A DNA stretch of 47,967 bases from Candidatus Galligastranaerophilus intestinavium (GTDB lineage: Bacteria > Cyanobacteriota > Vampirovibrionia > Gastranaerophilales > Gastranaerophilaceae). The stretch spans positions 1 through 47,967 of the forward strand of contig DVJQ01000040.1 of NCBI GenBank assembly GCA_018716625.1, read 5' to 3'. Position numbers and translations under genes: made by a program. The notes below the pieces were generated by a model. It ran no database searches, was not told the origin of the DNA, and saw only the letters and a program-made list of their open reading frames with translations. This document shows, in pieces, positions 1 to 28,187 of this stretch (its first letter is position 1; each line of letters opens with the position of its first letter).

Positions 1-311
1 ATTGTGGCTGATCATCCTCTCAAACCAGCTACTGATCGTCGCCTTGGTAGTCCATTACACCACCAACTAGCTAATCAGGCACAGGCTCATCTTTAGGCGC
101 CGGAACTTTCAAGATTAGTATTTCAACTAAGCTCATATGGGGTATTAGCAGAAGTTTCCCTCTGTTGTCCCCCACCTAAAGGCAGATTTCCTATGTTGTA
201 CTCACCCGTCCGCCACTTTCCACAAGAGCAAGCTCCTGCTTCTCGTTCGACTTGCATGTATGAGGCACACCGCCAGCGTTTGTCCTGAGCCAGGATCAAA
301 CTCTCCGTTGT
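1..311 (-). rRNA. rrs: 16S ribosomal RNA, 5' part (gene continues beyond the window start)
   Basis: The minus strand contains the conserved 5' segment of small-subunit rRNA, including the universal AGAGTTTGATCCTGGCTCAG site (complement of 285-304), followed by the ACGCTGGCGG and ACATGCAAGTCGAACG blocks and the GGCGGACGGGTGAGTA block. By analogy with E. coli numbering the mature 5' end should lie near 311. Only about the first 310 bases are present; the rest lies to the left of the window. The anti-Shine-Dalgarno end is therefore not visible. The gene is transcribed away from ispE and has its own promoter. Confidence 0.97.
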
Positions 312-24240: not shown

Positions 24241-27069
24241 TTAATTCAAAAGTCTTTTTAAATACTTGCCGGTATAGGATTTTTCACACTTTGCCACCTG
24301 CTCCGGCGTACCTTTAGCAACAATTGTGCCACCGCCTTCGCCACCTTCGGGTCCAAGGTCAATAATGTAGTCTGCACACTTTATAATGTCTAAATTGTGC
24401 TCAATAATTAAAACCGTATTCCCGCTGTCTGCAAGCTGATGAAGAATTTTAACAAGTTTATCTATATCCCACCAGTGAAGCCCGACCGAGGGTTCATCCA
24501 TTAAATAAAGGGTCTTGCCCGTTGCACGCTTGTTTAACTCAAGCGCAAGCTTCACTCTTTGAGCCTCACCACCCGAGAGAGTTGTGGCGCTTTGCCCGAG
24601 TTTTATATAATCAAGACCAACGTCATAGAGTGTTTGCAGCCTGCTTGCTATTCTCGGCACGTTTTTAAAAAATTCTAAAGCCTCACCTACCGTCATATCA
24701 AGTACATCAGCTATACTTTTACCTTTATATTTGACCTCAAGGGTTTCTTGATTGTATCTTTTGCCCTTGCATACGTCGCATTTTACATAGACATCAGATA
24801 AAAAGTTCATCTCAATTTTTAAAACGCCGTCACCCTTACATTTTTCACATCTTCCGCCCTTAACGTTAAAGGAAAATCTACCTTGCTTGTATCCCCTGAC
24901 TTTTGCCTCGTTTGTCTGAGCAAAAAGGTCGCGAATATAGGTAAAAACATCTGTGTATGTTGCAGGGTTTGAGCGCGGAGTTCTGCCAATCGGGCTTTGA
25001 TCAACACAAACAATTTTGTCGATATTTTCAAAGCCCTTTATTTCATCCACCCCCTGAGGTTTCGGACGATTTGAGCGCAGAGAATGCATTGCATATTCGT
25101 TAATTAAATCTTGCACAAGAGTAGATTTACCGCTGCCTGAAACGCCGGTTACGGCAACAATTTTACCTAAAGGGATGTTAACATCGATATTTTTCAAGTT
25201 ATTCAAGTGAGCATTTTTAACTTCCAAAAAATTACCGTTACCAAGGCGTCTTTCTTTTGGGACAGGTATTTCAAGCTCCCCGCTTAAATATTTACCGGTA
25301 ATTGACTCTTTTGAATTCTCAATGTCTTTTTGAGTGCCGAAAGCTACGACATGCCCGCCTTCAACACCTGCCTTGGGTCCAATGTCGACGATATAATCAG
25401 CAGCTTTTATGGTATCCTCATCATGCTCAACCACAATCAAAGTATTACCGAGATTTCTAAGTTTTACAAGGGTACTAATGAGCATATCATTATCCCTTTG
25501 ATGAAGTCCTATTGAAGGCTCATCCAAAACATAGAGCACTCCTGATAAACCTGAACCTATTTGAGTTGCAAGTCTTATTCGCTGAGCTTCCCCACCCGAG
25601 AGCGTTCCTGCACTTCTTGCAAGATTCAAATACCCCAAACCAACGTCAATCAAGAATTTTAAACGCAAACGTATTTCATCCAGTATTTGTTTTGCAATTG
25701 TTAATTTAAAATCATCCAAATTCAAATAAACTTCCTGAATAAAATCATAAGCTTTTGTGACAGACAAAAGACAAAACTCATGTATGTTTTTATCCATAAT
25801 CGTAACAGCCAACGCAAAAGGATTTAAGCGTGCGCCGTTACATGCTTTGCAAGGAATTGAGGTCATATATTTTTGGATTTCGCCGCGAATTAAATCAGAA
25901 TCGGAACCCTCGTAACGCTTTGTCAAAAAAGGTATTACGCCTAAATAGGCCATATAGTGGGTGTGGTAATTTTTAGTACCAAAATCCGCATAGCGCATTT
26001 TAATTTTTTCATCACCATTACCATATAAAATTATACCTTTTTGCGAAGGGGTCAAACTTTTAAACGGTGTATCAGGGTTAATTCCATAATGTTCACACAC
26101 ACAGTTTAAAATATCATAATAATACTGATTGCCCGTCTTTGCCCAAGGATAAATTGCACCTTCGTTAATTGATTTTGAAGGGTCGGGCACAACAAGCTCG
26201 GGGGTTATTTCAAAGTGCGCCCCTAAACCGTTACAAACTTTGCAAGCGCCGTAAGGGTTATTAAAACTCAACATTCTTGGTGTCAACTCTTCAAAACTCA
26301 AGTTGCATTTTGGACAAGCCAACTTTTCGGAAAAAATTTGTTCCCCTTGTCCTACTACATCAAGCACCATAAGCCCGTCAGAGCGCTGCAGAGCAACTTG
26401 CGAACTGTCAAAAATACGTGATTTTGCCGACTCTTTGACAACAATTCTGTCTATTACAACATCAATTGTATGTTTTTTTGTCTTATCAAGTTCAATTTCA
26501 TCCTCATCAAGATTATATATTTGCCCGTCTACTCTTAAACGCACAAAACCTTCGGACTTTAGCCCTTGAATTGTCTGAACAAATTCACCCTTTTTGCCGC
26601 GAATAATCGGGGCAATTATTTGAATTTTAGTCCCCTCGCCAAGCGCCATAATTTTTGCAACAATTTCATCAATTGTCTGCGGGACAATAAGTTCGCCGCA
26701 CTGAGGGCAATGAGGCGTGCCTACACGAGCATATAAAAGTCTTAAATAGTCGTAAATCTCTGTAATTGTACCAACAGTTGAGCGCGGGTTATTTGTGGTT
26801 GATTTTTGATCAATTGAAATAGCAGGCGAAAGCCCGTCAATATGCTCAACATCAGGCTTATCCATCTGCCCCAAAAACTGGCGCGCATAAGTTGAAAGGC
26901 TCTCTACATAACGTCTTTGCCCTTCCGCGAAAATAGTATCAAATGCAAGTGAACTCTTACCCGACCCTGATACGCCCGTAAAAACAATAAGTTCGTTTTT
27001 AGGTAACTCCAGTGAAACATTTTTTAAGTTGTGCTCTCTTGCACCTTTTATAACAATTTTATCGCTCAT
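24241..27069 (-). CDS. uvrA: Excinuclease ABC subunit A
   Basis: UvrA finds DNA lesions in nucleotide excision repair and loads UvrB. The 942-residue protein has two ABC ATPase halves with Walker A GVSGSGKSSLAFDTI (about 32-46) and GVSGSGKSTLVQDL, each with LSGGEAQR signatures. Both zinc fingers are intact (CPKCNLSF ... CKVC and CEKCKGDG ... CDVC). No SOS-type LexA box was recognised upstream. The message is predicted leaderless: TGA-CATAAT ends six bases before the ATG. Confidence 0.98.
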   Translation of the reverse strand: MSDKIVIKGAREHNLKNVSLELPKNELIVFTGVSGSGKSSLAFDTIFAEGQRRYVESLSTYARQFLGQMDKPDVEHIDGLSPAISIDQKSTTNNPRSTVGTITEIYDYLRLLYARVGTPHCPQCGELIVPQTIDEIVAKIMALGEGTKIQIIAPIIRGKKGEFVQTIQGLKSEGFVRLRVDGQIYNLDEDEIELDKTKKHTIDVVIDRIVVKESAKSRIFDSSQVALQRSDGLMVLDVVGQGEQIFSEKLACPKCNLSFEELTPRMLSFNNPYGACKVCNGLGAHFEITPELVVPDPSKSINEGAIYPWAKTGNQYYYDILNCVCEHYGINPDTPFKSLTPSQKGIILYGNGDEKIKMRYADFGTKNYHTHYMAYLGVIPFLTKRYEGSDSDLIRGEIQKYMTSIPCKACNGARLNPFALAVTIMDKNIHEFCLLSVTKAYDFIQEVYLNLDDFKLTIAKQILDEIRLRLKFLIDVGLGYLNLARSAGTLSGGEAQRIRLATQIGSGLSGVLYVLDEPSIGLHQRDNDMLISTLVKLRNLGNTLIVVEHDEDTIKAADYIVDIGPKAGVEGGHVVAFGTQKDIENSKESITGKYLSGELEIPVPKERRLGNGNFLEVKNAHLNNLKNIDVNIPLGKIVAVTGVSGSGKSTLVQDLINEYAMHSLRSNRPKPQGVDEIKGFENIDKIVCVDQSPIGRTPRSNPATYTDVFTYIRDLFAQTNEAKVRGYKQGRFSFNVKGGRCEKCKGDGVLKIEMNFLSDVYVKCDVCKGKRYNQETLEVKYKGKSIADVLDMTVGEALEFFKNVPRIASRLQTLYDVGLDYIKLGQSATTLSGGEAQRVKLALELNKRATGKTLYLMDEPSVGLHWWDIDKLVKILHQLADSGNTVLIIEHNLDIIKCADYIIDLGPEGGEGGGTIVAKGTPEQVAKCEKSYTGKYLKRLLN

Positions 27070-27075
27070 GCCTAT

Positions 27076-27084
27076 ATTATGTCA
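27076..27084 (-). promoter_or_regulatory. uvrA extended -10, predicted leaderless
   Basis: On the minus strand TGA (27082-27084) plus CATAAT (27076-27081) precedes the uvrA ATG at 27069 by exactly six bases. No good -35 is present. Confidence 0.5.
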
Positions 27085-27093
27085 CAAAAAAAA

Positions 27094-27124
27094 TTGCAAT
27101 AAATTTATGTATATATGTTATATA
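27094..27124 (+). promoter_or_regulatory. Promoter of the candidate small RNA
   Basis: TTGCAA (27094-27099) and TATATA (27119-27124), the latter preceded by TGT (27116-27118), form a promoter with a 19-base spacer and an extended -10. The predicted +1 is 27131, the base before the first RNA stem. Confidence 0.45.
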
Positions 27125-27130
27125 TTTTCA

Positions 27131-27230
27131 ATATATGGAATTATAATAATAGATTAGTTCTTCTCTTTCCACTCCTTCCTCCATATACAAATTTTTATTC
27201 TCGGTCGCCCCAATAAGGCGGCTTTTTTTT
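27131..27230 (+). ncRNA. Candidate small RNA with anti-Shine-Dalgarno-like loop
   Basis: TATATGGA (27132-27139) pairs perfectly with TCCATATA (27180-27187) around a 40-base loop. The loop contains CTTCTCTTTCC followed by ACTCCTTCC (27160-27179), complementary to purine-rich ribosome-binding sites. A terminator follows: GTCGCC (27204-27209), loop CCAATAA, GGCGGC (27217-27222, one G-U pair) and eight T (27223-27230). No plus-strand gene lies upstream for it to terminate. The ACTCCT core recalls cyanobacterial Yfr1, but the rest differs and homology is not claimed. Length would be about 100 bases. Confidence 0.55.
27204..27230 (+). terminator. Intrinsic terminator of the candidate small RNA
   Basis: Six-base-pair GC-rich stem (27204-27209 with 27217-27222) followed by T8 on the plus strand. 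Since no plus-strand coding gene ends nearby, it suggests a non-coding plus-strand transcript. Confidence 0.75.
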
Positions 27231-27326
27231 GCACTATTTCGGTAAAACCGCAATAGTAAAACATATTTGGAATAGTAAAAACGCAACAAAAATAAAGCGC
27301 AAGTAAACAAAGACAAGTTATAAAAA
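27231..27326. other. Intergenic region downstream of aroE
   Basis: AT-rich, with a small CGG/CCG hairpin (27240-27250) and a direct repeat of AATAGTAAAA (twice within 27251-27280). No gene, promoter or terminator for aroE is clear here. Confidence 0.4.
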
Positions 27327-28187
27327 TTACTGCGCCAAGCTCTCAAGTGCCGCTATTTTCATAGCTTTTGTATCGGGTGTTTGACCTGTCCAAATCTCAA
27401 AAGCCTTTTGTGCTTGGAAAACAAGCATATCAAGCCCGCCTGTATATCTTTTATTGCATTCCTGTGCATATTTTATCAATCTTGTTTTAATCGGGTTATA
27501 AACAATATCGTAAATAAAAGCATCATCATCAAGTGTTTTTATAGCCTGAAAATCGACAGGAGAAACACCTTCGAGAAAGTTTTTCATACCGACAGGTGTC
27601 GTATTAACAAGTATTTTATTGCCTGCTAAAGTATCCAAAAGCGTGTACGGCTTTAATTCTATTTTAATCTTCGGAAACTTTTGGCGCAAAATTTCAACAT
27701 GATTATGAGAGTCTATAACATTTCTTGAATAAAAAGTAATTTTTGAAACACCAAGACTTACAAGACCTGCACATATTGCGCGAGCCGCACCGCCTGTACC
27801 TAAAACGGTTGCATAATTATCCCTTAAATTTGCCTTAACGTCATCTGGAATAGGCTTTACAAAGCCGTATATATCAGTGTTTGAACCTTCAAGATTTTTG
27901 TCTTCGGTAATTTTTACGGTATTAACCGAACCGATTAAATCAGCATTTGTATCAAATTTTGACAAAAAAAGAGTAATCGGAACTTTGTGAGGAATTGTAA
28001 CATTAAACCCACTATAACCCTCAACTTTTAGGCGTTTAATTCTTGTAACGAGATTCTCCGGTTCTGTCGGCAATATATCGTAACTTCCGCTAAGTCCGCA
28101 GGTTTTAAGCGCGGCTTCATGAATAACCTTGCTTAATGAGTGTGAGAGCGGGTAGCCTATTATTGCAAGTTTATAATTGTCCGTCAT
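27327..28187 (-). CDS. aroE: Shikimate dehydrogenase
   Basis: AroE reduces 3-dehydroshikimate to shikimate with NADPH in aromatic amino acid synthesis. The 286-residue protein has the shikimate-binding GYPLSHSLSK (11-20), catalytic Lys68 in NVTIPHK and Asp105 in SNTDIYGF. The nucleotide-binding loop is LGTGGAARA (about 124-132) and the C-terminal GLDMLVFQA is also typical. Its start overlaps the topA stop by four bases (ATGA), so it is the tail of the long fixC-aroE unit. Confidence 0.95.
   Translation of the reverse strand: MTDNYKLAIIGYPLSHSLSKVIHEAALKTCGLSGSYDILPTEPENLVTRIKRLKVEGYSGFNVTIPHKVPITLFLSKFDTNADLIGSVNTVKITEDKNLEGSNTDIYGFVKPIPDDVKANLRDNYATVLGTGGAARAICAGLVSLGVSKITFYSRNVIDSHNHVEILRQKFPKIKIELKPYTLLDTLAGNKILVNTTPVGMKNFLEGVSPVDFQAIKTLDDDAFIYDIVYNPIKTRLIKYAQECNKRYTGGLDMLVFQAQKAFEIWTGQTPDTKAMKIAALESLAQ

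Follow-up and report, generated by a model that had tools for sequence, protein, structure and literature searches.

A predicted small-RNA family of Candidatus Gastranaerophilales with a nearly invariant CU-rich, anti-Shine-Dalgarno-like core

What transcript would end at a plus-strand intrinsic terminator that sits between two minus-strand genes? The question is raised by a 47,967-nt stretch of Candidatus Galligastranaerophilus intestinavium DNA (contig DVJQ01000040.1; hereafter, the window), part of a 1.76-Mb genome in 76 contigs. The host is a gut melainabacterium, and its phylum is shared with the cyanobacteria. The 257-base gap from the uvrA start (27069) to the aroE end (27327) holds no plus-strand gene, and no plus-strand gene needs a terminator there. 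A first-pass annotation had proposed that this gap encodes a non-coding plus-strand RNA of about 100 nt with its own promoter and terminator, arguing that no plus-strand protein gene precedes the terminator. The two minus-strand flanking genes bear out that argument, and all of the proposed parts (promoter, +1, stem, loop, hairpin and T8) are present where it had placed them. The features of the locus are as follows.

24241-27069, minus strand: uvrA, a neighbour divergent from the small RNA and not part of the RNA gene
27108-27113, plus strand: TATATA-like element, conserved, one helical turn upstream of the -10
27116-27124, plus strand: extended -10 (TG-T-TATATA), from the sequence, with a predicted +1 at about 27131
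27119-27124, plus strand: -10 box TATATA, within the invariant GTTATATA (27117-27124) and with TG ahead
27131-27230, plus strand: predicted small RNA of about 100 nt, called from conservation in genus and family, no Rfam match and no conserved ORF
27132-27139, plus strand: 5' arm TATATGGA of an 8-bp stem, invariant in the genus, without covariation across 49 homologues
27156-27184, plus strand: pyrimidine-rich ultraconserved segment AGTTCTTCTCTTTCCACTCCTTCCTCCAT, the presumed interaction site, 99.6% mean identity in the genus
27180-27187, plus strand: 3' arm TCCATATA of the 8-bp stem, overlapping the conserved core
27203-27230, plus strand: Rho-independent terminator, a 7-bp hairpin (27203-27209 with 27217-27223), then T8 (27223-27230)
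27327-28187, minus strand: aroE, a neighbour convergent with the small RNA and not part of the RNA gene

The 8-bp stem encloses a loop of 40 nt that contains CTTCTCTTTCC and ACTCCTTCC, and the terminator hairpin (27203-27223) is GC-rich. In the window sequence alone, consensus promoters and terminators are about as numerous as in shuffles, and the folding of the candidate RNA alone is unremarkable (z = -1.8). Elsewhere on the contig, its end (1-311, minus strand) falls within a 16S rRNA gene and matches positions 1-314 of the Rfam model.

A BLAST search with 27100-27230 finds matches of 88-93% identity in 14 of 15 genus genomes; the genome without a match is 75% complete. In the genus alignment of 14 sequences, conservation covers the transcript and the -10, with both flanks diverging. 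Mean pairwise identity reaches 99.6% for a 33-nt stretch around the core and 94% for the -10, but drops to 64% for the spacer upstream and to 29% for the 60 nt downstream. The fourfold-degenerate sites of the adjacent uvrA are 51% identical in the same genus, which argues for strong purifying selection on the core. The first-pass annotation had staked the RNA on stem and loop being conserved in close relatives, and both are: the loop is 99.6% identical, and the stem is invariant as well. On the minus strand, a conserved TTTTTTGTGNNATAATAT-type block lies immediately 5' of the uvrA start codon (27069-27090) in 14 of 14 genus genomes, all of which also have a -10-like hexamer a few bases 5' of the uvrA ATG; uvrA may have a leaderless transcript.

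Beyond the genus, 383 family, 286 order and 292 phylum genomes were searched with a covariance model of 14 sequences (R1) and a sequence-only model of 49 (R2). Matches with E < 1e-8 occur in 52 of the 383 family genomes and 5 of 41 genera, all of them Candidatus Gastranaerophilales (Melainabacteria), and everything else has E > 1e-4. The weak matches in other genera (E from 1e-4 to 0.05) that were inspected are pieces of other sequence or belong to a separate repeat, and they lack the core, or lack a -10 at the right place. That repeat, ATGTATGGGTCTTTTYTTGCACTYAAGTACTC...TTGCACTCTTTTGCACTCC, occurs in other family genera (L224, L226, L228 and L230-L234) with conserved flanks, and resembles the end of a mobile element or some other conserved repeat. 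Among the other cyanobacterial genomes sampled (phylum set, 292 genomes), R2 detects no homologue. An exact-pattern scan of the GTDB species genomes gives 60 matches, about 50 of them from Gastranaerophilales or gut bacteria, and the nearest relatives of the element there are Candidatus Gastranaerophilales, including Candidatus Galligastranaerophilus. We discarded eight GTDB matches outside Gastranaerophilales, a number close to chance and with the -10 absent, as well as a single match in viral contigs without the -10. Across the five genera, CACTCCTTCCTCCAT (27170-27184) is identical in 49 of 49 aligned members, in which it is preceded by a TTCTYTTTTC-like run. Rfam has no match for the candidate RNA at gathering or at permissive thresholds; the best covariance-model scores, for rseX (E = 3.4) and MicA (E = 5.4), are far below gathering and are attributed to chance.

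The homologues also retain the signals that would start and stop a transcript. GTTATATA lies 52-53 nt upstream of the core in nearly all of them (46 nt in genus g55), and is replaced by GTTATTTT or GTTAATAA in two. A -35-like hexamer at a spacing of 16-18 nt is found in 37 of 47 homologues and in 6 of 47 shuffles. Lying some 11 nt upstream of the -10, the TATATA-like element keeps a thymine at both -7 and -5 in 47/47 homologues; combined with the -10, it shows no enrichment elsewhere in 385 kb of the genus genome G014. A dedicated regulator or sigma factor may bind there. An intrinsic terminator is present in 49 of 50 distinct homologues, compared with 8% of shuffles and none of the 50 on the minus strand. 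The terminator hairpin sequences are unrelated from genus to genus; that the function is kept without the sequence is the best evidence for a transcript ending there.

Could this conserved block instead belong to a neighbouring gene, or be a gene for a protein? A cis role on uvrA or aroE, whether as leader, attenuator or antisense RNA, would suit the position of the RNA in the uvrA/aroE gap in its own genus and near the same genes in g53. That reading is largely refuted by the changing gene neighbourhood. The flanks are uvrA/aroE in g1, ilvC-like and other genes in g38, an alaS-like gene in g43, and clpB- and etfB-like genes in g55 (gene names taken from protein starts, without a family search), which argues against a leader or attenuator of any one neighbour; in g53, aroE and uvrA again flank the RNA, whose orientation to uvrA is reversed there. 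The RNA is on the plus strand with its own terminator and no plus-strand gene downstream, and overlaps the coding sequence of neither uvrA nor aroE, which leaves a cis role very improbable. Neither strand has a conserved ORF. Plus-strand ORFs share no frame among the homologues, and the number of T in the loop goes from three in g1 to four in g38 and g43, a shift of frame between genera that, together with the missing common frame, excludes a plus-strand peptide. On the minus strand, a 72-aa open frame (27128-27346) does span the conserved block in the window, but a single-base indel within that block breaks the frame between genera, its stop is not conserved in the genus, and promoter and terminator face the opposite way; we regard this ORF as refuted, with next to no chance of being a gene.

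The -10, the terminator and the conservation among homologues thus support what the first-pass annotation had claimed, an RNA of about 100 nt with its own promoter and terminator, and the Shine-Dalgarno-complementary pyrimidine stretch that it had pointed out is present and conserved in all aligned members. As judged from the alignments, the element would be a trans-encoded small RNA, having a promoter and terminator of its own and being independent of its neighbours. We hold it firmly, with little doubt, to be a real small-RNA gene. The comparisons fix its predicted boundaries and strand, its conservation, its standalone nature and its clade limits, and they define a previously unlisted small-RNA family, limited to one clade, with a nearly invariant core of the CU-rich, anti-Shine-Dalgarno-like kind.

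The fold fared differently. The 8-bp stem had been put forward as the defining fold, to be examined for compensatory changes. Within the genus the stem is invariant, so the genus alignment speaks neither for nor against it. Over the 49 homologues, 88% of cells pair and there are no double changes; the covariation score equals that of shuffles, one central pair is broken in 16 of 49, the stem is often broken outside the genus, and RNAalifold predicts no pairs on the homologue alignment. In g43, the predicted partner of the same 5' GTGGAA is a different one, TTCCAC. With no covariation in its support, we reject the stem as a conserved structure. Most predicted folds leave the larger part of the core unpaired, though less of it in g43. 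What the aligned sequences indicate as the conserved feature is the pyrimidine-rich segment, not the stem.

How does the RNA compare with known small RNAs that carry such a segment? The first-pass annotation had been reminded of cyanobacterial Yfr1. The ACTCCT that prompted this is indeed common to both RNAs, each of which has a nearly invariant unpaired pyrimidine-rich motif starting with ACUCCU, is trans-encoded in the same phylum, has an intrinsic terminator and presumably pairs with mRNAs. The likeness ends there. Yfr1 is 54-69 nt long, with two stem-loops around 16-20 nt that contain ACUCCUCACAC, and usually adjoins guaB/trxA (PMC2190773). In contrast, the new RNA is about 100 nt long, with ACUCCUUCCUCC in one large open loop of 40 nt plus the terminator; it lacks the undecanucleotide ACUCCUCACAC, its core being ACUCCUUCCUC in all members; and it lies by uvrA/aroE (by ilvC-, alaS- or clpB/etfB-like genes elsewhere) and is limited to five genera. 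Identity with Yfr1 is therefore rejected on undecamer, size, architecture and location. The Yfr1 undecamer ACTCCTCACAC is at background level in Gastranaerophilaceae and frequent in most other cyanobacterial genomes sampled.

Two other groups are similar in manner. The alpha-r14/"cuckoo" RNAs (NfeR1) of alphaproteobacteria also have an ultraconserved unpaired anti-Shine-Dalgarno motif, free-standing genes and stems variable in sequence. They have three hairpins with CCUCCUCCC in each (PMC10746234), a motif absent from the new RNA sequence, whereas the new RNA carries a single uninterrupted segment, CACUCCUUCCUCC, and, the terminator aside, none of its hairpins is conserved. LhrC and the CU-rich small RNAs of low-GC Gram-positive bacteria (RsaE, FsrA) share CU-rich single-stranded sites and repeated C-rich seeds that block Shine-Dalgarno sites; they differ in phylum and have no sequence relation to the new RNA, their UCCC motif is absent from the new core, and LhrC is multicopy whereas the new RNA is single-copy. 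As far as the predicted folds go, the new RNA has the conserved, accessible Shine-Dalgarno-complementary segment that marks CU-rich anti-Shine-Dalgarno small RNAs, a functional class and not a homology family, and at most by analogy it would work as they do.

The segment CACUCCUUCCUCC contains overlapping complements of AAGGAG and GGAGG, which makes occlusion of ribosome-binding sites its natural reading, and there is precedent for small RNAs that block Shine-Dalgarno sites in LhrC (PMC4132741) and NfeR1 (PMC10746234). In the mechanism that we propose, the RNA would be transcribed from its own promoter (+1 at about 27131), end at the intrinsic terminator (27230), and act in trans as a regulator of Candidatus Gastranaerophilales through a CU-rich, largely single-stranded segment, UUCUUCUCUUUCCACUCCUUCCUCCAU, carrying overlapping anti-Shine-Dalgarno-like seeds (ACUCC, UUCC and CCUCC). 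In its own genus the 8-bp stem would present this segment as an open loop, with a looser fold elsewhere. Short seeds of about 7-11 nt would most likely pair with several mRNAs, at their purine-rich ribosome-binding sites or start regions, and pairing would block translation, probably without Hfq. Hfq is dispensable for LhrC (PMC4132741), and no Hfq-domain protein (PF17209) is found in 39 relatives, a search that a divergent Hfq could escape. Shine-Dalgarno blocking is plausible, and a free-standing trans-acting RNA repressing mRNAs by short seeds is the reading we favour with some reserve; its expression, pairing, targets and repression are what we infer.

The target searches are neutral towards this reading or count against it, and they single out no target. 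No 18-nt near-complement exists in the RNA's own genome. A perfect complement (GGRRGGRGTGG, with G-U allowed) occurs only at the RNA gene itself in the five genus genomes searched, and once or twice per genome in g38 and g43 genomes. A search for 16-nt complements with mismatches yields only slightly more than a reversed control. For the G014 scan, which covered genome stretches of 385 kb with 355 gene starts, complements of 7-11 nt at these starts do not exceed those of shuffled cores, and the best duplex energies surpass those of the controls by a narrow margin. Some individual sites provide leads. AAGGAGTG recurs ahead of the start in a few sets of genus orthologues, including those of a small exported protein, of a 242-aa protein and of a response regulator, and a 139-aa exported protein, with AAGGAGTG ahead of its start in G000, G008 and G014, is a candidate. 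Short-seed candidates in G014 are an M29-like aminopeptidase (AUGGAGGAAGG), a signal-peptidase-like gene with AAAGAGAAGAA at its start, and an HU-like gene (GGAAGGAGU).

Conservation over about 29 nt exceeds the need of a simple seed and counts against the short-seed reading. It would suit a CU-rich core that binds an RNA-binding or ribosomal protein, or serves as its decoy, and is not an antisense seed: those 29 nt are kept almost letter for letter between genera, complementary sites at gene starts show no excess, long targets are absent, and the Yfr1 study brought up this option for its own motif (PMC2190773). There is, however, no candidate protein, and the single-stranded CU-rich cores of known small RNAs usually pair with Shine-Dalgarno sites (PMC4132741, PMC10746234); we consider protein binding unlikely, if a serious contender. 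A sponge, pairing mainly with another small RNA that bears a purine-rich motif, has a proposed precedent in Yfr1/Yfr2 (PMC6778093); the genus genomes have no perfect 11-nt complement except the gene itself, which speaks against it, although a second RNA of shorter complementarity may exist, and we rate the sponge improbable. More speculatively, and rather doubtfully, the RNA might be a regulator specific to this lineage, with its own type of promoter element (TATATA-N4-GTTATATA-like) and the almost invariant 29-nt core, that without Hfq controls either a ribosome-associated protein or how many mRNAs are translated. It would then occupy, in the non-photosynthetic Melainabacteria, the position of Yfr1 in photosynthetic cyanobacteria.

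Gastranaerophilales are gut bacteria known mostly from genomes. We found no small regulatory RNA of Melainabacteria/Gastranaerophilales in Rfam, and nothing relevant in the open-access literature searched. A small-RNA family with fixed boundaries is a probe for gut metatranscriptomes. The contrast to Yfr1 would place in sister lineages of one phylum two different, nearly invariant Shine-Dalgarno-complementary small RNAs. In one genome (G007, contig C1, 272000-286000; L296), a 5.8-kb block that includes uvrA, the small-RNA gene and aroE occurs twice in tandem at 99.9% identity, and the second copy of the RNA is either a recent duplication or an assembly artefact.
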